A stretch of DNA of 64,000 nucleotides from Sphaerolaimus hirsutus (Eukaryota > Nematoda > Chromadorea > Monhysterida > Sphaerolaimidae), in contig OZ038452.1 in assembly GCA_964036195.1 (NCBI GenBank), positions 29,275,785-29,339,784 on the forward strand, in the 5' to 3' direction. Each line of letters starts with the position of its first letter. Position 1 is the first letter of the stretch. A program made the translations under genes and the position numbers. Positions 5,073 through 34,155 of this stretch are shown piece after piece. The notes beneath the pieces were generated by a model. The model was not told where the DNA came from. It saw only the letters and a list, made by a program, of their open reading frames with translations, and made no database searches.

Positions 5073-5228
5073 TAATATATAATTCAATTCCTTAATCGTG
5101 TCCAATACTGAGTGTTATCAGCCACAACTAGAGCGAATTGAAAAATTCAATTTTTATCATTTCACGTCATCATCATTTCACGTCACAGTGTCAGGGAACA
5201 AATTTGACATTTCACGTCAGACTATTGC
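5073..5228 (+). repeat. Left terminal inverted repeat of the RT unit
   Basis: Matches 15099-15242 in reverse complement: TAATATATAATTCAATT is a diverged outer part, followed by an identical 58-bp core, then TTTCACGTCA-type repeats, ending GTCAGACTATTGC. An ORF starting with GTG runs out of this repeat at both ends of the unit, which is why two different predicted proteins share a first stretch. I regard it as untranslated. Confidence 0.85.
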
Positions 5229-5269
5229 TTGCAATACAATACAATACAATACAAGATTTTATTTTGGAG

Positions 5270-6298
5270 TGAGATCACATGCTTTTGTCGATTTCTACCT
5301 CTCGCTTCGCATGAGTTTTCTCTGCGGCCCGGCATTTTCAGTTGCACGCCGCTCCTGCTGTAAAGGAAATATAACATGCATAAAAGGTTTTTATGTTTAC
5401 CGTGCTGAAATTGAACGCGTAAGGTAAAACATGCCCATATTCAAAGTACGAAAAGATAAGCCCCATTAAGTTTACTGCTAGGTTCAATTGTGAGGACACC
5501 TGTTCTCACCTCTCGCACCTATTCACAATATATTTTACTCGCACTGTTTGTTACCTCGAAAAACTTCCTCAAAATGCTGCCTTTATACCGCATTACACCA
5601 GTTTTTTCTGGCTATGCCCCTAAGGTTCATAATTTTACTGTCGATTACCTCAAAAATGAATGTCGCCTTGAGATTTTAATTTCGGAACCGATCAATGATG
5701 TGTTTGTTCCATCAGGGATAGAGATTCACGGAAATTGCACGCAGTCTGTATTTTTACATGTCTCTCTTGTAAATCCTTACTGAAACCCACTTACCACCCA
5801 GCGCACAGGTAGTGATGTATACAGCTCGCGGTACCCACGTTGGATGTGTTGTTGAGCATGCAGAGCTCGCGCAGGACGTTCAAGCTGCCAGCAGTCTGCA
5901 GGTATACGAAAGAATATATATCATTTTTTGATGCTAAAAAATAATACATGTCGACATTTGGCATAAAATGTTTTATTTCATTTAAAAAGTGTGTTACGTA
6001 GATAAGTTTAATGTTTTGAATTTTTTTAAGTGATATTTTATCTTATCATATTTTCCTCCCACAGATGCCACCTGCTCAAATAAGCAGCCCGATATATGGT
6101 ACGCATGACCGCGTGGCATACGTAGGTCACCTTTTGCTAATTATGTTGCTAGCTTAAAATATCTAATCGATCTCACCCCAGGGTACACATGTCATGGCTC
6201 CATATATGCTGTTTTCTCCTCGCACTATCTACCCAGTAGTTTGCCGCGCCGTCCCACTGAAACGCGTCGCCGAAACTGTAAAGACATATGACGGATAA
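5270..6298 (+). CDS. Unrecognised small intron-containing gene of the RT unit, convergent to the RT gene
   Basis: I do not recognise the product. Exon-like pieces with splice signals are: an exon ending CGTAAG at 5423 (donor GTAAAAC); an exon from about 5482 to 5768 encoding MLPLYRITPVFSGYAP and ISEPINDVFVPSGIEI-like sequence; a 40-nt intron (5769-5808, GTAAAT...CACAG); an exon 5809-5901 encoding ARGTHVGCVVEHAELAQ; an intron 5902-6064; a short exon 6065-6098; an intron 6099-6181; and a last exon to about 6291 or 6298 depending on frame. Phases agree for the middle exons but not between the first two, and these introns do contain stops, unlike those of the opposing gene. It starts just inside the left inverted repeat, mirroring the gene that starts at the right one. 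Confidence 0.4.
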
Positions 6299-6559
6299 AT
6301 CGTAAATGTTGGTGTTACACAAGAATGTGTGTCAATTTTTTAGTGTTTAACGAAAATTACCGCCTGTCACGTCACGCCTAGTTTTGCTCAAGTGAACATG
6401 CCAGCTGAAGCTTCACAGGAACATATATATTGAGCGATCAAGTGTATCTGGAAAGTTGTCCAGATTTCCCAATAATCACCCATAATTTCCCGTATATATC
6501 TCACACCTGACATATTTCACAACAGCAAAGCTATCCATGTTGCGACTGGTAATTTGTAT
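6299..6559. other. Convergent intergenic segment inside the RT unit
   Basis: Lies between the 3' ends of the plus-strand gene and the minus-strand RT ORF. No AATAAA on the relevant strands, no repeat and no ORF of interest seen. Confidence 0.4.
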
Positions 6560-9500
6560 TCACACATTCACGTTTTCCACCAACCAAGACAACCCAATCA
6601 GAAACATGTCATTTATCATCACTTTATGTTTGTTACAAATTTTGGAACTCAGCCAATTTTTGGAATTCACGCAGTTATATACACATTTTGTATCTAAAAT
6701 TTTTTTTCTATGTGTATCAAGATGTTTACATATGTATAGGGTATGTAAAACCCCCCCTATAACCTTAACTGGAAACTCGCTGCATTTCTCACATATTTTT
6801 TTACCATTCGCTCCATATTGTCTTATCGCATTGTGTCTTGCTCCAAACCACGTTAGGGCATTGTATGGTAGATTAATTGGGTGAAGTTGCTCACCAATGT
6901 CATCTCTAAGTGAGGCAATTTTTTGATGTTTTACTTCTTGAACGCATTTAGCATGTCTACGTTTTCTAATTGATAATTTTATATTTATCTTGGATAGCAT
7001 TCTAAGTGCGGTCACTGTTGTATCTGTATAACCGGCACTCTCAATGTATCGCCTACAGATCCTGTTTAGCCCCCCCAGCTTAGAAACATTATTTAAATTA
7101 TTCTCCACAGTAAGGGCCCTTTTTATCAGTCTTGTATCACTTAACCTTGTCACATAATTGTAGTAGGTAAGTGTCATCTGATGATATCTATCTGAAGGTA
7201 ACTCCCCACCTAGATCTATCAACAGGCTCGATGTGCTTGTACTACATGGTAAATGTAGACACTTTTTGATTGTTTGCCAATATATTCTATCCAGTTCAAC
7301 TAGCTGTTTTAGGCTCGCCCCTGTCACTTCTAGACCGTACATGGATGCTGGCTCTATATAGCTTTTAAATGCCATTTTACTATACAGAGCTGGTTTGGTG
7401 GTATTAGATGAGGACAACACAGCTAAGGAGCTGTGACGTAGCATTTTAGACAGAGCCATCTTTCGATGCTTTTCGAATGGATCAATCTCAGATGTCAGAG
7501 TTATCCCTAAATATTTAGTTTCATTTTCTTCTATTATATTTTGAATTTTTTTCTCACTTGTAAAGCCAAGTCCCCACAATTTACTGGTCGCTTGGACCCC
7601 CCAGCGCAATATATGAGATTTATCCTTATTTATAGATACATTCCAATCCCATGCCCAATGGGTGAATGTATCCATAAGATGTTGCAAATCTCTATCATTA
7701 TTTGCTAGTAAAACTATGTCATCTGCAAAAAAAAGCCCTGGCAATCTAGGTTGTGACAGACCTAATTTTGCACCTCGGCCCGTTTCAAGTAGCTTGCCTG
7801 CCAAATCATGCATGTATATTGCATATAAGGTTGGACTTAAAGCACAACCTTGTGCCACCCCTATCGGGTATTCCATTTCGTCGGATACAAAATCATCATA
7901 AGTCATTTTAACTGAGATGTTCTGGTATGCCGATGTTACGGCTGTAACAAATTTAGTTGGAATACCCATACTTCGCATTTTATACCACAATTTTTCTCTA
8001 TCAACTCTATCAAATGCCTTAACCGCATCTACAAAACATGTCACAAATTTGTTGCCATTGCATAAGGCATAGTGGTGACAACAGCGAAGTATCTGTACGT
8101 TGTCACACGTACGTCTATGAGGCCTAAACCCCCCTTGAAGTTCTGTAAAAACATCCAAATTTTCACAAATATGCATTAGTCTGTCATTGAGCATTGACAT
8201 GTAGAGTTTTTTAACGTTACAACTTATACCTAGTGTCCGATAATTTTTCATGTCTGATTTACTCCCCTTTTTGTGTAAAAGAACCATTTTACATATTTTA
8301 GCCTCATTTGGTATTTCAGTTCCTGACAGCCAGGTGTTGTAAATTGCAAGAAGTGCCTCCCTACCTGATAGAGGCAAGTGTTTTAACATTTCATGATAAA
8401 TGTCTGTTGTTCCTGGGGATTTATTGTTTTTTAGTTGTTTAAGACATTTCTCAAGTTCACACATGCTAAATGGTTCAACAAGTGCCTCAGTATCCAGATC
8501 CGGAATTACATTTGATACAGAGGGAAGTTCTGTTGCTCCTGGGTTTGGAGCAATCACAATATCCCAAACACTGCGCATTTCGATATTCATTTTTTCCTGA
8601 GTATCCACTTCATTGCCAGCACTGTCTTTTATCTGTGCGGGGGCTGATTTTTCATGCCAGTTTTTATTGATATGTTTGTACACTGTAATCAATTCCTTAC
8701 CCTTATGTTCATTTAGTTTCTCAATAAGGGCATCTTTTCTTTTTTTATTTAACGACCTTTTTTCCTTATTTAGTTGCCATTTCAATTTATCAATTTCCCC
8801 CCGAATGTTAATACAGTTATTCCCACCTAGCTTACGGCGGAGTTTACTTATTTTCCGGTGAATTTTTTTTATCACCCTTGGAATAGCTACTTTAGGCACT
8901 TGTACACATAATCTATCCTTTGTTGCATTTTCTGCAGCTATTTTTACCCCAGATAAAAAGTCATGATAATTCGACATATTGGTATCATTAATGATTTTTG
9001 TAAAGATACCCCACTCTTCTCCTCGAGGTTTTTTTAGCCTAGATTGAATAACCTTAGGTTCGGGGTATTTATTTACATGAATCATCATTGCATGATGGTC
9101 TGAGATCAATGGACAGGCACTTCCATATGTATCAATTTCCCCCCAGATACTGTCGCCGTAAATATTAGTAAAACACAAATCAATTATAGTTTTACAATTT
9201 TTCCTTTCAAAAGTCCACGGAGAGGCAAAGTATCTGTTTAGTAGTATTGGATCTCTCGCTGCTATCCAGTCTCGAATAATTTTGCCATTTGCATTGATCT
9301 CAGATGTATTTCCCGCTATACCAAACAAATCATTACCAATGTGGCCGTTGAAATCCCCCATGATTATGATATTTTCGTGATTTCGCGTACACTTATCATA
9401 CAATTTGCCTAGTTCTGTCAGTATTTCTATATTTTTTCTCAAGATTAGCCGAGATTTACGCACTTTGGAGTTATTTTCCAAATAACATGTAACCAGGTAA

Positions 9501-9565
9501 TATTTACACCCTCCGGTTTCAATAATAGTACCCTTGATATTTGATGAGTACTCAAAGGTAACCAA
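6560..9565 (-). CDS. Non-LTR (LINE-type) endonuclease-reverse transcriptase, main ORF
   Basis: The 1001-residue ORF holds the C-terminal part of an exonuclease/endonuclease/phosphatase domain (IIIMGDFNGHIG at 66-77, PLISDHHAM at 152-160, with the expected Asp/Asn and Asp-His). A complete RT follows: KGSKSDMKNYRTLG (433-446), QGGFRPHRRTCDN (477-489), motif A FVDAVKAFDRV (511-521), motif B GVAQGCALSP (569-578), motif C LFFADDIVLL (611-620) with both catalytic Asp, and SINKDKSHIL (644-653). A Cys/His cluster (ICEKC, YICKH, DTH) near the C terminus resembles the LINE ORF2 zinc knuckle. The listed start is internal: the endonuclease N terminus lies in another frame at 9586-9926, separated by a one-base shift near 9600. 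RT catalytic residues are intact. The product would copy RNA at a nicked chromosomal target. Confidence 0.92.
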   Translation of the reverse strand: MVTFEYSSNIKGTIIETGGCKYYLVTCYLENNSKVRKSRLILRKNIEILTELGKLYDKCTRNHENIIIMGDFNGHIGNDLFGIAGNTSEINANGKIIRDWIAARDPILLNRYFASPWTFERKNCKTIIDLCFTNIYGDSIWGEIDTYGSACPLISDHHAMMIHVNKYPEPKVIQSRLKKPRGEEWGIFTKIINDTNMSNYHDFLSGVKIAAENATKDRLCVQVPKVAIPRVIKKIHRKISKLRRKLGGNNCINIRGEIDKLKWQLNKEKRSLNKKRKDALIEKLNEHKGKELITVYKHINKNWHEKSAPAQIKDSAGNEVDTQEKMNIEMRSVWDIVIAPNPGATELPSVSNVIPDLDTEALVEPFSMCELEKCLKQLKNNKSPGTTDIYHEMLKHLPLSGREALLAIYNTWLSGTEIPNEAKICKMVLLHKKGSKSDMKNYRTLGISCNVKKLYMSMLNDRLMHICENLDVFTELQGGFRPHRRTCDNVQILRCCHHYALCNGNKFVTCFVDAVKAFDRVDREKLWYKMRSMGIPTKFVTAVTSAYQNISVKMTYDDFVSDEMEYPIGVAQGCALSPTLYAIYMHDLAGKLLETGRGAKLGLSQPRLPGLFFADDIVLLANNDRDLQHLMDTFTHWAWDWNVSINKDKSHILRWGVQATSKLWGLGFTSEKKIQNIIEENETKYLGITLTSEIDPFEKHRKMALSKMLRHSSLAVLSSSNTTKPALYSKMAFKSYIEPASMYGLEVTGASLKQLVELDRIYWQTIKKCLHLPCSTSTSSLLIDLGGELPSDRYHQMTLTYYNYVTRLSDTRLIKRALTVENNLNNVSKLGGLNRICRRYIESAGYTDTTVTALRMLSKINIKLSIRKRRHAKCVQEVKHQKIASLRDDIGEQLHPINLPYNALTWFGARHNAIRQYGANGKKICEKCSEFPVKVIGGVLHTLYICKHLDTHRKKILDTKCVYNCVNSKNWLSSKICNKHKVMINDMFLIGLSWLVENVNV

Positions 9566-9585
9566 TTTGTATTTTATATCCCTTT

Positions 9586-9938
9586 TTATATAAATCGAGA
9601 TGCCTCCACACCTGTTTTGTAGCTGTGTGACGATTCGTATCCGGGAATTTCTATAGCATCTGTTGCGCAGCGGAAGTGAGTCTCAACGAAACATAAAATA
9701 GCACATTTAGTATTTTGGACAGCTGCCAAAACCTCTTCACATTTCCATCTCAAATGTCTAGCGTTTTGGTAAAGTATTGTTAAGGGAATTGTTAACCCTG
9801 CTGTAGGTATTGGTTCGAGATTATCAAACAATCCATCGCCTGTATTTATTCCGCGTGTTTCTCCAAACAGTATAAAAAAAATGGCTAGAAAGAGCCACAA
9901 ACGCAAACCCGAAGTGCACCCTGTGTAACGACCGAAGG
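9586..9938 (-). CDS. N-terminal part of the APE-type endonuclease, frameshifted from the RT ORF
   Basis: Encodes LTILYQNARHLRWKCEEV, a short hydrophobic helix and CAILCFVETHF, the first strands of the EEP fold including the catalytic Glu in VETHF. It ends after SYKTG. The next residues of the domain, CGGISIYIKRDIKYKL, are read one frame back and run straight into the downstream ORF. One missing base in the GGTGTGG stretch (9600-9612) would explain it. A splice acceptor (TTACACAG at about 9922-9929) precedes this frame, so it is probably the 5' part of an exon. A hydrophobic FLAIFFILFG stretch precedes the catalytic domain. Confidence 0.75.
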
Positions 9939-10600
9939 ATTACTGCGTGCTACAAAACCACAAAACTTACACACGAAAACAGCCATACAAAGATTCAAGG
10001 GATCTATCTCAAAAGGTTTGAGAATATATATTTGTGCTCCCGAATTATTTTCGCATGCTAGAAAAAAATTAAATATATTAAAGAATGCTCCAAAGACTGA
10101 TGCAACAAATCCCTTTGTATCATTGTATGGCAGTTTAATAACTCGATAAAGTAAGATGACGGTAAAAAAACCCCACAGATAGCACGCATATAAAAATTGG
10201 CTTTGTGCCAACGTTCTAGTAACGGGGTTCACTGCTGGCGGGCAAAGTGCTGGCTCAGTGGTAGCGTGTTTGCGGGGGTCCGTTGCACACTGCTTGGGGG
10301 TCCTGTCACGCGTCCGCCTCGATTTCCCTGTAAGATGAGTAATATATCTAGATGTATGGGGAGGTTGTGAAGGTGATTTAGTAACCCACATTTTCAACAA
10401 CTCTTTGCGGATCAGGTAGCTTATCACAGAGTTGCCCACACGAGATGTATGGAGCCCATCGCGGCATAACATTTGCAAAAATGCATCAGTTTCTGTGTCA
10501 CAAAACATGTCATCATGGTGCTCACGCAAAAACAACATTAATGGCAAAATGACAAAATCACAGAACGATTCCGCCACCAAATCATTCAACGCACACTCCA
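9927..10600 (-). CDS. C-terminal part of the SGNH-hydrolase domain (after a -1 shift) and linker
   Basis: This frame is entered from the upstream ORF by a -1 step at 10601-10607. It encodes LNDLVAESFCDFVILPL and then RDGLHTSRVGNSVISYL, a typical SGNH block V (Asp-x-x-His) with its trailing helix. SGNH esterase domains are known in ORF1 proteins of CR1- and L2-type LINEs. The distal part (about 9930-10300) is AT-rich and hydrophobic. It ends at the TTACACAG acceptor, so part of it is probably intron; I could not place the donor with confidence. Confidence 0.6.
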
Positions 10601-13600
10601 GTTTAAAAAAAAGTCAAACGTTTCCACAAGCAATTCCCTACTCCAGCCATTTTTTATGTTGCGAGGTAATGTCGGACCAATTAAGCTAAGAATCACCTTT
10701 CCCGAGGGTTGCAATGATACCCCCGCGGCATTTTGAATTTCCAGTAAACATTGTGAGACACCATGTACAAAGTACTTATCTACGACGTCGACACCATGTC
10801 CAGCCGAGAAAATGTTCTCGGCATCACAGGCATTTAGCACACAGCGAATTATCAAAGCGTCATACGAGCTCGCAAGGGTAAGTTCACTGATTGCAGCTGC
10901 GATTGTGGGCAGCCTTTTGCCACTAAATAGTGTCTTCGATGAATGCACAATTAGTGGCAAATTTGACTTAGCACAATCGCGTGAAAGCATAGTATTCAAT
11001 GAACTCCCCGTGCTGTTGCCGATCAACAGAACGGTGTAAAAATAGTCATACGGGCGATCATTATCGATGGGAAACGCTGGGGGTTCAATTCTAATCGCGC
11101 ACGTGTGATCTATATCTCTCCAGTCACAGGTTGGGCCCATATTGACCCCATTATTTAACATCCGAATCACGTCAGTCATTTTTCTTGGCTTTTTGCCAAT
11201 CTTCGGATCAATAAGCTGAGTGCCGTCATCCGTCAATTGCGGGCTTTCAACATAATGGCCAAAACTCTTGGCGCATTTCAACCTCGTTGAGTCGGCCAAG
11301 AGGGCGAGCCGGAACGGTTTGCAAATTTTCGTTTTGAGCGACCTCCAGCCAGCACCACGTACCTGTTTGGATAATTTCGCATGTAGTTGTGATGTGCGCA
11401 ATGTGGCCGCAATGCTTGCCTGGGTGTGGCCGGCGTAGGTGCCGTCAACAGGTTGCGCCGCCGTCCCCGACTGTCCAGCCGTCTCACCTCCTATGACGTT
11501 TGATTTTATCGAATAGATATTTCTACAGTCACATAAGTCAGAGACAGAAAAATGTAAGTTTTGTTTACCTTGGAAAACATCATCATCGCCACATAGCACC
11601 ACATCGGCACCATCGCCCTGCTCGGCTACAGCGTGCGACTTGTTCGGATCGGCATTCCCGCCCGCCGGGCCGCCGTACCGAAACATGGTGTCTGAAATCA
11701 ACGTAAATCCATTTAATAAAGTATGAGAGTGTTTCACCACCTCACAATAAAATGTAGTGACTAGCAGTGACACACCTGTTGTTGCCGATTGCGAGTGCGT
11801 CACAATCACTTGTTCACTCTCTATTACCGGCTCTCTGAGCGCCGCCATCACGCGTTGTGTCTTTTGGTACGCTGTTTTTTGTTTCGGCGTCGGGCCACCA
11901 CGACCTGCAATAATCAATGATCTATTCATTTCATTACAGTGATTTGGCACTATTGATAACATAAGTGAGAGAAGTACCCATAGAAGTACCCATAGATATC
12001 CCCCATAGCACGTACCTCGCTGATTTCGAAAATTACCGCGACCACCGGCGCCGCCTCGGGCACCACCACCACGCTGTTGTCCGCCGCCTCTGTTGGATTT
12101 GCCACGATTGCCTGAATTGCCAGCACCGCGCGCATTCGAGGTGCCAGTCGATTGGCCTTTGTTGACCGTTTCAAGGATTGCGGGCATGTAGCCGCGGCGA
12201 AGTGTCGCATTTGTGCGTTGCTGCGAGCAAAAGACTTTTTGTGTTCTATCTTTATTTGTATAAAGATTATTGTTCACCCAGCTATTATTTGTGACTAGTA
12301 GTATGGGTTGACGTAACTGTAGCATCATCTCATTCAAATTTACATGAAAATCTAGAGATAATTTGGCAGTTGTAGTTGGTGGACATTTTTTTCTGGTATA
12401 TCTATAGTTTCCGCCCCTAAAAAACGTAGAAAAGTCAAGTACTAGAACCTTTTCGATATAGTTCTCCGGCGCTACCAAATTTGCCTGCACCGACGCGTAC
12501 ACATTGGCCGTGTCACGGGCATCCCACTGTTTTGCTTCATCGAAGGCCGCAAATAAGCCTTCATCTTCCAGCCGCTCTATTTCGCCATTTTCCGTGCGGT
12601 GGGTGAACGCCGATTCTTCTGTCAAGTTGGCACGTACTTCCGTCCATGCCATGCCGTATAGGTTCATATACGGCGCCAGGTAGAAGGGGCCATGTGACGT
12701 CGGTATAGCGCACTGTATTGGTTGGTAAAACGTGTCGTAAGCAGTATACATAGCAACAAACAAAGCTGCTTCAGGGATTAAGTAAACAAAATGTAGCACT
12801 TGAAAATCGAGTTTTGTTTTCCGTCTTATAACCCAACATACATAACGAATTTGATGTGATACATAACGAATTTGATCTGATTTACATGCCCTTAATTCAT
12901 AATAATAAACCCACACCCGTAAAGGCACCTCGAGTTTTCCTTTTATACCGCCACACATTAATGCGCCCTGCCAGCCAGACGGCGGAAATTCCCCCGCACA
13001 GCGGATGGTTCGGTTTGTTTTGACCCAACCGTTCGGCCCATACGCATTGCCCGATGACCATAGCAGCTGTCTGTGTGCGTACATTTCATATACCAATTTC
13101 ATCAAAAATTTTATTTTAATAACTCTATCGACAGCTATCCAAAATGATGCCATATACATTATTAATATATGACATTTATCAGTCCGGACCATCAATAGGA
13201 CATAGTGTTGTCCAGAGAGCATCATGCTAACGCTCTGGACAACTATTCTAAGACAATGATAATTTTTGTCATTCACTAAAAATACCTTCCAAAACGATAA
13301 AGTTGCCTTAACCCAACTAATTTTGGGTAGTTGTCCAGAGGGTGCCCTGGTTACCCCATGGACAACAGAGATTAGATATTCGTTTTTACCATTATTAGTT
13401 ATATATTTGGTGTCAAACCGTGAATTGTATGCCATCCCTTTTTTTGTGGACTGTTGTCCAGGGAGTATCCTCAATAGCCCCGTGATATTAAGTATTGAAT
13501 TGATAAATAAGTTGACATTCATTGTAATTTCAATGAGGACCAGTTCTATAACTGTTTTCCAATTTTTTTTAGAATGTTGTCTAGAGAGCTTCCTAGTTAA

Positions 13601-15085
13601 CCCCTGGACAACTTGTTGTAAATGAGCTAAAAAGTCTGCAATGATCTTATTTTCAATAAAAGACTGTAAACGACTATCCCATCTATTTACGTAATCTTTC
13701 CTACGGGGAATGTGTGTATCTCGATGGACAAATATTTGTAAATTATCTGTTGTATATCTAGCTATCCTATCCCTATCAAAATTTGATTGTCTTGCGCATT
13801 TCCAGCCAGAAACGTACCTAAAACCCGCATTGTTATCGACGGCACTCTGTATTATTGTTTTCAATGTCGCGTATGCAACTGTGTCCATTGCATATTCCCT
13901 GCAGTCGTACAATTGGCCCGTATCGCTGTCTCTTCCGTCACCAATCTTGAACCACTTTTCTGCCACGTCCAGTTTTAGGGCTTCAACATGGCGGGTCACT
14001 TGCATCCAGACTCGAAATAATTCACGTTTGTATTCGTGAAATTCTGCAGACCACTTGGTGCCATCGTTTGACCCAAATCGCCCGTTTAGCGCCTTGGCCA
14101 TGCTCGACATGTGTGCCGGTGCACATGCCAGGGCTTCCGCCTGAGTAAATTGTAGTATTGTTGTCTCATGTATTAGATCACAAATATCCCAGATTTTAGA
14201 GAGCTCGAATATAAACAATTTATTTTCAATGTATCGTATTTCCATCCCATTTTTCTGTAATTCCATCCGAATTTGCAATATTATTATAATATATTGCGAG
14301 ACTTTTAGTTGAGGAATAACTTTGATTAAAAACACAAATCTAAAAAACAACCTTAAACTCACATATATCATGCCGTTCAAAATGCACTCGAAAACTTCCC
14401 CGTGCACGTGTACTTGCCATGGGTAAAAGCCACTGAAGGGGTCGCTGGGGTCGTCCAGCACAATCACAATGTCAGACATGTTAGGCTTGAACGGTGCCGC
14501 CACCACACCTGACGGTTTTGGCGTAACCATCGGCGTCTGTGTGTAGGTAGAAACATCAGTTAGGGTCGAAACGATAAGGTTATATTTCGCAGAGTTGTAT
14601 ATTATTATGCCAAAAAACTTCTTAAAATTTATTAATCGTATTCCCATCCAGTATCGTGGATAAATATCAACATAAGCACACATTGTATGTACTGTATCAA
14701 ACATCTCAGAAATGGCACGTTGCCAAGTACAATTAAGTAATATGCCCGCCATATCAAAGAAAAATCTCACCTCCGCACCAACGCGCACCGTGTGGACTCG
14801 CTTTGCTTGTGTTGTCGATTGGCCCTGGCTTGGGTCGATGCGCCGCTTTGGAGCTGCAGAGCGGTACAGCGTGCCGGGTTGGCAACTTGCCAAGTTCGCT
14901 GTCTGCCCAGCGCTCGACGATGCCCCCATTGTGTTATCAGCCAATTGTAGTGCCCACAGACGATTTTGACATTGATTCATCAGAACGGCGTGTGCGTCAT
15001 GACTCTGTGAGAAATATAAAGTAGAAGATTTTACTTGAAAAATTCCATCTGTTGTCACCCGTATCAGATAGATGTTTAATTTCAT
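10586..15085 (-). CDS. Gag-like protein with RGG box and SGNH esterase domain; eight in-frame introns
   Basis: One continuous reading frame. GC-rich exon-like blocks are separated by AT-rich segments with splice sites. Exons: 15035-15085 (doubtful), 14771-15004, 14363-14536, 13818-14140, 12949-13070, 12449-12768, 12016-12220, 11776-11904, 11569-11691, 10586-11490. All junction phases agree. The N-terminal half (APAHMSSMAKALNGRFG, MAWTEVRANLTEESAF) is alpha-rich and unrecognised, plausibly nucleocapsid-like. The exon 12016-12220 carries an RGG-rich RNA-binding tract (GGGQQRGGGARGGAGGRG). The last exon starts an SGNH domain (VLLIGNSTGSS block I, IRCVLNACDAEN block III) that is cut by a stop at 10586-10588 before block V. 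The first Met in frame after the inverted repeat is at 15085; a GTG further out lies in the repeat and is not credible. Expected role: binding of the element's RNA, as for LINE ORF1p. Confidence 0.75.
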   Translation of the reverse strand: MKLNIYLIRVTTDGIFQVKSSTLYFSQSHDAHAVLMNQCQNRLWALQLADNTMGASSSAGQTANLASCQPGTLYRSAAPKRRIDPSQGQSTTQAKRVHTVRVGAEVRFFFDMAGILLNCTWQRAISEMFDTVHTMCAYVDIYPRYWMGIRLINFKKFFGIIIYNSAKYNLIVSTLTDVSTYTQTPMVTPKPSGVVAAPFKPNMSDIVIVLDDPSDPFSGFYPWQVHVHGEVFECILNGMIYVSLRLFFRFVFLIKVIPQLKVSQYIIIILQIRMELQKNGMEIRYIENKLFIFELSKIWDICDLIHETTILQFTQAEALACAPAHMSSMAKALNGRFGSNDGTKWSAEFHEYKRELFRVWMQVTRHVEALKLDVAEKWFKIGDGRDSDTGQLYDCREYAMDTVAYATLKTIIQSAVDNNAGFRYVSGWKCARQSNFDRDRIARYTTDNLQIFVHRDTHIPRRKDYVNRWDSRLQSFIENKIIADFLAHLQQVVQGLTRKLSRQHSKKNWKTVIELVLIEITMNVNLFINSILNITGLLRILPGQQSTKKGMAYNSRFDTKYITNNGKNEYLISVVHGVTRAPSGQLPKISWVKATLSFWKVFLVNDKNYHCLRIVVQSVSMMLSGQHYVLLMVRTDKCHILIMYMASFWIAVDRVIKIKFLMKLVYEMYAHRQLLWSSGNAYGPNGWVKTNRTIRCAGEFPPSGWQGALMCGGIKGKLEVPLRVWVYYYELRACKSDQIRYVSHQIRYVCWVIRRKTKLDFQVLHFVYLIPEAALFVAMYTAYDTFYQPIQCAIPTSHGPFYLAPYMNLYGMAWTEVRANLTEESAFTHRTENGEIERLEDEGLFAAFDEAKQWDARDTANVYASVQANLVAPENYIEKVLVLDFSTFFRGGNYRYTRKKCPPTTTAKLSLDFHVNLNEMMLQLRQPILLVTNNSWVNNNLYTNKDRTQKVFCSQQRTNATLRRGYMPAILETVNKGQSTGTSNARGAGNSGNRGKSNRGGGQQRGGGARGGAGGRGNFRNQRGTCYGGYLWVLLWVLLSLMLSIVPNHCNEMNRSLIIAGRGGPTPKQKTAYQKTQRVMAALREPVIESEQVIVTHSQSATTGVSLLVTTFYCEVVKHSHTLLNGFTLISDTMFRYGGPAGGNADPNKSHAVAEQGDGADVVLCGDDDVFQGKQNLHFSVSDLCDCRNIYSIKSNVIGGETAGQSGTAAQPVDGTYAGHTQASIAATLRTSQLHAKLSKQVRGAGWRSLKTKICKPFRLALLADSTRLKCAKSFGHYVESPQLTDDGTQLIDPKIGKKPRKMTDVIRMLNNGVNMGPTCDWRDIDHTCAIRIEPPAFPIDNDRPYDYFYTVLLIGNSTGSSLNTMLSRDCAKSNLPLIVHSSKTLFSGKRLPTIAAAISELTLASSYDALIIRCVLNACDAENIFSAGHGVDVVDKYFVHGVSQCLLEIQNAAGVSLQPSGKVILSLIGPTLPRNIKNGWSRELLVETFDFFLNWSVR
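10601..10607 (-). promoter_or_regulatory. Candidate -1 ribosomal frameshift heptamer T TTA AAC
   Basis: On the minus strand the codons read TTT TTA AAC, the canonical X XXY YYZ slippery pattern in the zero frame, five codons before the TGA at 10586-10588. A -1 slip enters the overlapping frame that supplies SGNH block V. The run of eight T also makes a one-base deletion, in the genome or the assembly, an equally good explanation. I did not identify a convincing downstream pseudoknot by eye. Confidence 0.45.
11491..11568 (-). other. Intron 8 of the gag/SGNH gene: 78 nt, stop-free
   Basis: Donor TTCCAAG|GTAAACAAAAC, acceptor AAACGTCATAG|GAGG, phase 1, 26 codons without stop. Confidence 0.75.
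11692..11775 (-). other. Intron 7 of the gag/SGNH gene: 84 nt, stop-free
   Basis: Donor ACAACAG|GTGTGTCACT, acceptor GTTGATTTCAG|ACACC, phase 1, 28 codons without stop. Confidence 0.75.
11905..12015 (-). other. Intron 6 of the gag/SGNH gene: 111 nt, stop-free
   Basis: Donor CGAG|GTACGTGC, acceptor ATTATTGCAG|GTCG, phase 1, 37 codons without stop. It lies directly after the RGG tract. Confidence 0.75.
12221..12448 (-). other. Intron 5 of the gag/SGNH gene: 228 nt, stop-free
   Basis: Donor AAAAG|GTTCTAGTAC, acceptor TTTGCTCGCAG|CAACG, phase 0, 76 codons without stop. Confidence 0.65.
12766..12948 (-). other. Intron 4 of the gag/SGNH gene: 180 or 183 nt, stop-free
   Basis: Donor GGCG|GTATAAAAGG, phase 1. 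Tandem acceptors CCTGAAG|CAG|CT (NAGNAG type) end at 12769 or 12766, and both keep frame. Confidence 0.65.
13071..13817 (-). other. Intron 3 of the gag/SGNH gene: 747 nt, stop-free, with internal TTGTCCAGAG repeats
   Basis: Donor TTTTAG|GTACGTTTC, acceptor GTACGCACACAG|ACAG, phase 2 on both sides, 249 codons without stop. Inside, a TTGTCCAGAG-like word recurs in both orientations about every 120-130 nt (13205-13230, 13330-13370, 13440-13480, 13570-13615). This suggests a structured RNA or array. Confidence 0.75.
14141..14362 (-). other. Intron 2 of the gag/SGNH gene: 222 nt, stop-free
   Basis: Donor TAT|GTGAGTTTAAGG, acceptor CAATTTACTCAG|GCG, phase 0, 74 codons without stop. Confidence 0.75.
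14537..14770 (-). other. Intron 1 of the gag/SGNH gene: 234 nt, stop-free
   Basis: Donor GAG|GTGAGATTTTT, acceptor CTACACACAG|ACG, phase 0, 78 codons with no stop in the gene's frame. The inferred peptide is rich in F, I, Y and N, as expected of translated AT-rich intron. Confidence 0.75.
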
Positions 15086-15098
15086 AGTTATGCCCCAT

Positions 15099-15242
15099 GC
15101 AATAGTCTGACGTGAAATGTCGAGTTGTTCTCTGACGTAAAATGATGACGTGGAATGATAAAAATTTAATTTTTCAATTCGCTCTAGTTGTGGCTGATAA
15201 CACTCAGTATTGGACACGATTAAGGTATTGATTCATAGATTA
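15099..15242 (-). repeat. Right terminal inverted repeat of the RT unit
   Basis: Reverse complement of 5073-5228 with the 58-bp identical core. The minus-strand gene begins immediately inside it, so the repeat may hold the promoter, as its left copy may for the plus-strand gene. Confidence 0.85.
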
Positions 15243-15552
15243 TCCTTAGAAAATTGTATTGTCGTCACACGAGTGTAGTGTAAAAGGGGCCTTATTTTGC
15301 TGTTTTGTTTGGCTGAATGTTGATTGCACTAATACATACAATGTTAATGAAGAGCTATTGTTACCGTGTTAACGTTATAAGTCATAAATACTATTTATGT
15401 GTTTCAATTTTTCCATGTATAGCATTGACCTGACCCCCATAGGCCCCCATTGACCTAACACCCAGGTGTTATACAAGTTTTAAAAAAGTTCACTGAAAAT
15501 TGCTCCAATCTTATATAACCCCTGCATGTTATAAACGGATAAATACATTAAA
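15243..15552. other. Non-coding flank of the RT unit
   Basis: Contains GTCGTCACACGAGTGTAGTG and AAAAGGGGCC (15263-15293), resembling the segment outside the left repeat. The rest shows no gene or clear repeat. Confidence 0.35.

Positions 15553-22745: not shown

Positions 22746-34155
<11,410 letters not shown>

Follow-up and report, generated by a model that had tools for sequence, protein, structure and literature searches.

An open reading frame with eight predicted introns

The analyzed window, a 64,000-nt stretch of Sphaerolaimus hirsutus contig OZ038452.1, contains on its minus strand the first open reading frame (ORF1) of a LINE-like element, with candidate ATG start codons at 15085 and 14929 and with eight segments that resemble introns.

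10586..15232, minus strand: stop-to-stop open reading frame of 1548 codons, ORF1 including its predicted introns
14537..14770, minus strand: predicted intron 1, 234 nt, GAG/GTGAGA...ACACAG, top-scoring pair within 60 nt with averaged matrices
14141..14362, minus strand: predicted intron 2, 222 nt, top-scoring pair within 60 nt with averaged matrices
13071..13817, minus strand: predicted intron 3, 747 nt, with an internal diverged tandem array of period 123 nt (41 codons)
12713..12916, minus strand: predicted intron 4, revised borders, 204 nt (12766-12948, 183 nt, in the first-pass annotation)
12221..12448, minus strand: predicted intron 5, 228 nt, strong acceptor and weak donor
11905..12015, minus strand: predicted intron 6, 111 nt, inside an RG/GG-rich stretch and carrying a 12-nt tandem duplication
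11692..11775, minus strand: predicted intron 7, 84 nt
11491..11568, minus strand: predicted intron 8, 78 nt
10586..11490, minus strand: last ORF1 exon, GC 0.48, without a Pfam family

As the first-pass annotation had claimed, each of the eight segments starts with GT, ends with AG and has a length divisible by three (3n; 234, 222, 747, 183, 228, 111, 84 and 78 nt, with segment 4 at its original borders), and none contains a stop codon in the ORF1 frame, the number of whole codons being 624 rather than the approximately 629 first given. The other two sense frames of the segments hold 54 and 63 stops, and the antisense frames, none of which is open, hold 29, 50 and 46. The earlier description of AT-rich segments between GC-rich exons also held, with a GC content of 0.28-0.37 in the segments versus 0.48-0.64 in the pieces between them. 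The 102 codons upstream (15232-14927) are likewise open, with 0 stops versus 11 and 5 in the other frames, and an AT-rich block downstream (10210-9921) is open in the -1 frame, with stops at 0 of 96 codons versus 4 and 8.

In-frame stop expectation and base composition

Order-2 Markov models (2000 simulations each), trained either on introns of the host or on the segments themselves, predict 33.0 (sd 5.6, minimum 16) or 38.1 (sd 6.1, minimum 20) in-frame stops, agreeing with the initial expectation that AT-rich DNA of this length should hold dozens. Since 33-38 stops are expected and none is observed, chance is very unlikely, and we reject it as the cause of the open frame. A two-state hidden Markov model using composition only, run over 9500-15300, called nine AT-rich blocks, six of which overlap the original segments; the 111- and 84-nt segments were uncalled, and three blocks lie outside the segments (15300-15012, 10693-10466 and 10198-9500). 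Polyadenylation hexamers are not avoided in the predicted introns (6 versus 4.8 expected).

Splice-like borders and a host intron control

A host gene in the same window provided the intron control.

22752..34155, minus strand: host HSP70 gene, 13 exon pieces (one weak)

Of the 12 junctions between these pieces, the ones following exons 2 and 10 were excluded because no frame-keeping GT-AG solution was found for them. Two of the 10 resolved introns have a 3n length, and each of the 10 is interrupted by in-frame stops. The mean GC content of host introns is 0.381 (single introns 0.306-0.454).

Borders of the ORF1 segments were scored with a generic matrix, a matrix derived from host introns or the average of both, using 1000 codon shuffles as the null. 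For GT-AG pairs of 3n length within 60 nt, the best scores are 106.5 (generic) and 102.8 (host matrix), compared to shuffle maxima of 100.6 and 82.2 (n=1000). Borders set from the composition-only blocks, which cover 6 of the 8 introns, score 74.7 and 79.0 versus shuffle maxima of 72.5 and 65.1, and all shuffles are exceeded in every case but one, the generic matrix with no 3n requirement (p 0.011). Furthermore, when pairs of any length are allowed, the top one is 3n for all eight segments with averaged matrices at ±60 nt, and for 6-8 of 8 in windows of ±20 to 60 nt across the two matrices and their mean. This 3n excess fades in ±80-nt windows (only 4-6 of 8), which counts against the intron model; in composition-centred windows the best pair is 3n in 3-5 of 6 overall and in 3-4 of 6 at ±80 nt.

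The GT-AG borders of the predicted introns match the host consensus, with introns 4 and 5 weak at their original borders. Segment 4 is 3n with either border pair, but its best-scoring borders lie elsewhere than first annotated: with averaged matrices within 60 nt the top pair is 12916..12713 (204 nt, 3n), lying near the composition block 12909..12726, and the three pairs ranked after it, which score nearly as well, have lengths other than 3n, while the top pair in the composition-centred ±60-nt window spans 173 nt and is not 3n. Intron 4 is thus probably 12713-12916. The acceptor of segment 5 is strong; its donor is weak and uncertain, with higher-scoring donors at 12502, 12490 and 12442 (3n) and at 12494 (not 3n). 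These weak or movable borders also count against the intron model. On balance, the splice-site statistics and the in-window HSP70 control support the interpretation of the segments as introns, rather than mere AT-rich inserts, with a readable unspliced form.

Architecture of the element beyond ORF1

6560..9682, minus strand: ORF2, 1040 codons, endonuclease (PF14529) and reverse transcriptase (PF00078), no intron seen
9885..10613, minus strand: open frame lying between ORF1 and the endonuclease, shifted by -1 from the ORF1 frame
9586..9939, minus strand: open frame, shifted by a further -1; judged by eye, it presumably encodes the N-terminal portion of the endonuclease, with no match in Pfam or PDB
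10601..10612, minus strand: TTTTTTTTAAAC, near the end of the ORF1 frame and the start of its -1 continuation, with the in-frame heptamer T TTA AAC
15096..15242, minus strand: copy of the terminal inverted repeat located at the ORF1 5' end
5073..5231, plus strand: other copy of the terminal inverted repeat, 86% identical to the first and 1.3 kb past ORF2

ORF2 (GC 0.37) matches Exo_endo_phos_2 (PF14529, E 2.4e-8) and RVT_1 (PF00078, E 1.2e-30), and its PDB matches are the R2 and L1 ORF2 reverse transcriptases. The element shares with LINEs (endonuclease-bearing non-LTR elements) an APE-type endonuclease and a reverse transcriptase in a single ORF2 and a separate, RG-rich upstream ORF, for which Pfam and NCBIfam yield no family. 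It differs from them in the eight 3n stop-free introns predicted in that upstream ORF and in the inverted repeats of about 150 bp that bracket the entire 10.2-kb unit. To our knowledge, inverted terminal repeats are not a feature of LINEs, a point against the model proposed below, and because they flank this unit we call the element LINE-like instead of filing it as a LINE. Visual inspection of the repeat ends showed no target duplication, and no transposase family, as a DNA transposon with terminal inverted repeats would carry, was found in the four ORFs scanned with Pfam or the three scanned with NCBIfam. Within the window, tblastn (E up to 1) revealed no second copy. Searches of viral, phage and prokaryote collections with ORF2, three ORF1 exons and one 26-nt inverted-repeat stretch returned no relatives, which says little, because collections of viruses and prokaryotes are an unlikely place to find relatives of a eukaryotic element.

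Three -1 shifts separate ORF1 from the reverse transcriptase ORF, and this copy therefore encodes no single uninterrupted polyprotein; readability stops short of ORF2, which counts against the model proposed below. At 10601-10612, T TTA AAC has what we take to be the form of a -1 frameshift site, but no outstanding fold lies downstream (z -0.39), and by eye the two frames resemble halves of one domain; an indel in the run of T is thus equally likely, and we did not retain ribosomal frameshifting as the explanation. The shift into the 9586..9939 frame could be made by a candidate 50-nt GT-AG intron (9970..9921), and the further -1 shift before ORF2 falls in the endonuclease region, so that the endonuclease is split in this copy. 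The last ORF1 exon may resemble an SGNH/esterase-like ORF1 domain, an identity that we could not uphold, as the ORF1 C-terminus has no Pfam match even when read through; its predicted structure (mean pLDDT 33.2) is too poor for use.

Peptides and repeats inside the predicted introns

Composition tests, which are weak, suggest that the intron peptides resemble random stop-free sequence. The amino-acid test leans largely on base composition, as indicated by held-out ORF2 blocks scoring approximately zero against their own composition. A position-specific composition test, which alone did not decide, gives LRT 10.2 (p 0.08) for the introns, and LRT 12.5 to 27.2 (p 0.016 to 0.066) for three overlapping ORF2 blocks of 624 codons. 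Differences among the diverged repeats of intron 3 are spread about equally over all codon positions, with no third-position excess, and its adjacent linkers differ at 53-57% of sites, again flat across codon positions and with no stop. The tandem duplication units inside the introns are all 3n (21, 12 and 123 nt). The intron 3 cores keep an exact 123-nt spacing, stricter than the frame alone requires, which counts against the model proposed below.

The random-like peptides and flat codon-position differences fit selection for readability instead of selection for a peptide, and functional intron peptides are disfavoured. The first-pass claim that spliced and unspliced RNA both encode a usable protein is hence upheld for the readability of the unspliced form, by the splice statistics and the HSP70 control, and not supported, given the random-like composition (weak test) and the lack of a third-position excess, if taken to mean functional intron peptides.

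A proposed model for the predicted stop-free introns and its alternatives

Copying through spliced RNA should cost retroelements their introns each time. We tentatively propose, with a probability of roughly 0.45, that this LINE-like element carries eight 3n stop-free introns in ORF1 because its unspliced RNA must be translated end to end. The ORF1 gene would be interrupted by eight spliceosomal introns removed from only part of the transcripts; the unspliced transcript would be the template for new copies, since the introns would otherwise vanish at each jump, and would be translated straight through in cis. LINE proteins act mainly on their own encoding RNA, and a stop codon in an intron left in the RNA would cut ORF1 short and leave the transcript open to nonsense-mediated decay; for these reasons, copies gaining an intron stop or frameshift would be purged. 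The intron peptide would be tolerated filler, and the spliced RNA would yield a shorter ORF1 protein. Splicing and selection against stops are here inferred from one sequence. The idea fits the data, and what the sequence shows is the stop-free 3n segments, their host-style splice-like borders, the downstream endonuclease/reverse transcriptase gene and the lack of any sign of intron-peptide conservation. Codons one transition away from a stop are in mild excess (46 versus 31.2, z 2.7), and the remaining codons a single step from a stop show a mild deficit (177 versus 199.6, z -1.9); a steady purge of stops would not by itself predict this skew, which counts against the model.

The main rival, which we judge somewhat unlikely, dispenses with splicing: ORF1 would be an intronless gene of about 1500 codons, with AT-rich, fast-evolving coding inserts between GC-rich pieces and fortuitous GT-AG borders. 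Stop-freedom and 3n length then become trivial, introns are normally absent from LINEs, ORF2 is also AT-rich yet encodes known domains, and two of the eight original borders score poorly. Against it, border scores beat all 1000 codon shuffles, including with the host matrix and with composition-set borders (the p 0.011 exception aside), the best pairs are mostly 3n, the RG-rich stretch continues on both sides of intron 6, and the inserts have a random-like amino-acid composition that ORF2 does not share, in the weak test where held-out ORF2 scores about zero. A fairly improbable alternative is regulated splicing as in the exitrons of Arabidopsis and human, the inserts being functional protein segments and the element making ORF1 isoforms, long and short, that serve different tasks. 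According to the sections of PMC4484396 drawn on here, exitrons have intron-like borders, no stop if retained and often a 3n length that keeps the frame, and a stop-free stretch that carries splice sites within a coding ORF, as predicted here, fits the formal definition. The same sections describe exitrons as GC-richer than constitutive introns, with prevalent synonymous substitutions, whereas our segments (GC 0.28-0.37) fall under the host intron mean of 0.381, their peptides look random in a weak test and the intron 3 repeats are flat across codon positions; moreover, eight are predicted in one mobile-element gene, AT-rich and with no signal of peptide conservation.

Movement as DNA through the inverted repeats, or reverse transcription of antisense RNA, would also keep the introns, leaving stop-freedom to another cause. 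The inverted repeats enclosing the 10.2-kb unit speak for this, as do bdelloid rotifer Penelope-like elements, which, in the portions of PMC3846280 consulted, share inverted terminal repeats and the ability to retain introns; an antisense template is proposed there, an unspliced sense template not being excluded. These elements differ in having a GIY-YIG endonuclease, for which the present element has no Pfam match (its endonuclease is Exo_endo_phos_2), and another kind of reverse transcriptase, and open 3n introns are not described in those portions. Given that the scanned ORFs hold no transposase family, that no target duplication is visible by eye at the repeat ends, that all three antisense frames contain stops and that the absence of sense stops is left unexplained, we consider this route very unlikely. 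Barely credible is an origin by chance, by an assembly artefact or as a very young duplicate of coding sequence turned intron. This is a single copy on a scaffold with two 200-N gaps, but the Markov nulls stand against such an origin, and recent coding-to-intron conversion is disfavoured because the segments are AT-rich (GC 0.28-0.37) with random-like peptides, unlike coding sequence that lately became intron.

Relation to intron biology and silencing

Stop-free 3n introns are rare and counter-selected in all eukaryotes tested, according to the part of PMC4484396 that cites Jaillon et al. 2008, and ORF1 therefore goes against this reported rule: its predicted introns share spliceosomal borders with ordinary 3n introns, and all eight are stop-free. 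Among the matches listed in our literature search, no title or abstract opening describes a retroelement whose introns are 3n and stop-free, and the parts of PMC6431247 and PMC11167929 consulted add nothing further. Excerpts of PMC8770142 report that in human cells introns protect L1 and transgenes, even when unspliced, from HUSH silencing of long intronless transcripts, which offers a reason for a retroelement to gain from unspliced introns, the host here being a different one. By analogy, the element might mimic a host gene, its AT-rich introns evading such silencing while 3n length and stop-freedom keep the template translatable in cis; the introns would then act as camouflage in DNA and RNA and as silent filler in the protein, a reading that we hold to be decidedly improbable. 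Under the template model, eight frame-keeping stop-free introns suggest a way to carry introns and yet use unspliced RNA as both message and template. If confirmed in other copies, they would be a direct genomic signature of the translation of unspliced retroelement RNA, as well as a natural test of intron protection of mobile elements from silencing.

ORF1 and its open AT-rich segments

ORF1 of the LINE-like retroelement extends from stop to stop over 1548 codons as one ORF (15232..10586, minus strand) and holds eight segments, numbered introns 1-8, which the first-pass annotation had described as AT-rich stretches between GC-rich exons, with GT-AG borders, lengths that are multiples of three (3n) and no in-frame stop. 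This description was borne out: all eight segments start with GT, end with AG and are 3n in length, their GC content is 0.28-0.37 versus 0.48-0.64 for the pieces between them, and the ORF1 frame has no stop among their 624 whole codons, compared with 54 and 63 stops in the remaining two sense frames and 29, 50 and 46 in the antisense frames. The expectation of dozens of stops by chance also held, order-2 Markov models (2000 runs each) predicting 33.0 ± 5.6 in-frame stops (minimum 16) when trained on host introns and 38.1 ± 6.1 (minimum 20) when trained on the ORF1 segments. The longest stop-free run in 36.5 kb of the window (15.3-22 and 34.2-64 kb, six frames) was 178 codons.

A host HSP70 gene as control

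34155..22752, minus strand (as ORF1): host HSP70 gene, 13 exon pieces (one weak), long introns

Ten of the 12 HSP70 junctions were placed with GT-AG borders and the frame kept, and the remaining two were left out. At these, after exons 2 and 10, a GT-AG solution keeping the frame was sought and not found, and the gene may therefore be damaged. Two of the ten placed introns are 3n and all ten contain in-frame stops (3 to 43 per intron); ordinary host introns thus show ordinary behavior. The ten introns also make the splice consensus of the host roughly known, and a host splice matrix was built from them. Most of HSP70 intron 2 is occupied by a MITE-like inverted-repeat unit (33283-33453, CAGACCCTGTAAAAAGCCCTGTAAAATG... 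at either end), which starts ~10 nt past the intron's likely donor.

Splice-site evidence

Scored with the host matrix, the annotated donors rank 4th to 63rd of 255 GT for six introns, with weak donors at introns 4 (151st) and 5 (82nd), and the acceptors rank 2nd to 33rd of 208 AG for seven introns and 79th for intron 4 (Mann-Whitney on donor and acceptor ranks, p 8e-4 and 4e-5). Because these borders had been picked in the first-pass annotation, we took the top-scoring GT-AG pair around each border and set it against 1000 codon-shuffled versions, in which composition, codons and openness were kept. For 3n pairs within ±60 nt, the border score was 106.5 with a generic matrix (null 61.4 ± 11.8, maximum 100.6) and 102.8 with the host matrix (null 48.3 ± 12.0, maximum 82.2). 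A composition HMM, used as the sole source of borders, recovered six of the eight segments, three of its nine AT-rich blocks lying outside them; at its borders, 3n pairs scored 74.7 versus a shuffle maximum of 72.5 (generic) and 79.0 versus 65.1 (host), and dropping the 3n demand gave p 0.011 and p 0.001, respectively.

Taking these signals in the sequence together, we estimate at roughly 75% the probability that the ORF1 segments are introns; the main rival reading, in which ORF1 is never spliced, we regard as rather unlikely. When pairs of any length were admitted and the matrices averaged, the best pair within ±60 nt was 3n in all eight segments. With either matrix or their mean, it was 3n in 6-8 of eight at ±20 to 60 nt, in 4-6 of eight at ±80 and in 3-5 of six in composition-centred windows. 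Intron 4 is better set at 12916..12713 (204 nt) than at its annotated borders (12766-12948), although a window centred on its composition block favors 12885..12713, which at 173 nt is not 3n.

What selection may act on

In the ORF1 exons, avoidance of stops does not account for all of the codon-position structure (LRT 38.0, with p at its bootstrap floor, 0.003). In the introns such extra structure is not clear (LRT 10.2, p 0.08), although equal-sized blocks of ORF2, the downstream endonuclease/reverse transcriptase (RT) ORF, are only somewhat stronger (12.5-27.2). The amino-acid composition score of the intron frame, which largely reflects base composition, is -28, compared with -31 ± 7.6 for stop-free random sequence and +31 ± 7.1 for ORF2 resamples. 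Intron 3 consists of diverged tandem repeats (lag-123 identity 0.438 versus a mean of 0.272 over lags 30-399, z 7.4), with four cores carrying the arm CTCTGGACAAC (≤1 mismatch) at exact 123-nt spacing (13207-13612, minus strand); the opposite hairpin arm is present in two of the four, and hairpins form where it is kept. Neighboring linkers in the aligned units contain no stop and have diverged at 53-57% of sites, the differences being near-equal by codon position (13/15/13, 15/17/12 and 13/16/15). Similarity to other units is absent from the stretch past the last core and from the stretch in a core's place ahead of the first. For further tandem duplications inside ORF1 introns, the unit lengths are 21 and 12 nt.

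Taken together, the codon-position, amino-acid, intron 3 repeat and duplication-unit results suggest that the introns have long been diverging under a constraint against stops and frame loss, their peptide lacking conservation. This constraint would not demand a spacing of exactly 123 nt and does not account for it. One further arm related to CTCTGGACAAC lies at 6455-6465.

Proposed mechanism

The element combines openness, frame, splice-like borders and LINE-type enzymes. We propose that its unspliced RNA would be the template, because the introns would otherwise be lost, and that this RNA would need translation all the way through, since LINE proteins favor their own RNA and a stop within a retained intron would cut ORF1 short and invite RNA decay. 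Introns, even unspliced, are reported to protect from HUSH silencing in human cells (PMC8770142); protection of this type would supply a reason for keeping them.

ORF2, frame shifts and element ends

9682..6560, minus strand: ORF2, endonuclease and RT families, downstream of ORF1
10601-10612, minus strand: first -1 shift, around a T8-AAAC run (TTTTTTTTAAAC) near the ORF1 end
Between 9939 and 9885, minus strand: second -1 shift
Within 9586-9682, minus strand: third -1 shift, endonuclease region

In PDB, R2 and L1 ORF2 chains are among the matches of the ORF2 RT. From ORF1 to ORF2 the frame moves three times, each by -1, so ORF2 of the present copy may be damaged, or the element may rely on frameshifting; a predicted 50-nt intron (9970..9921) could account for the second shift. 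In form, the run at 10601-10612 resembles a -1 ribosomal frameshift site, and the open frame carries on in -1. Downstream of ORF1, the AT-rich stretch 9921-10210 has no stop among 96 codons in the -1 frame, versus 4 and 8 in the others, and may represent a ninth intron whose length is not 3n.

The whole unit is bounded by two inverted repeats, each about 150 bp long and 86% identical to one another (15096-15242, directly ahead of the first ATG of ORF1, and 5073-5231), an unusual arrangement for LINEs. No target duplication was seen by eye at the repeat ends; scans of viral, prokaryote-genome and phage collections found no relative, and there was none elsewhere in the 64-kb window. An (AATAC)n-like run lies inward of the left repeat. 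Between that repeat and ORF2, a GC-rich stretch of ~100 bp (5795-5895) with minus-strand splice-like borders (TGCAG|...|GTAAGT) is possibly a captured exon.
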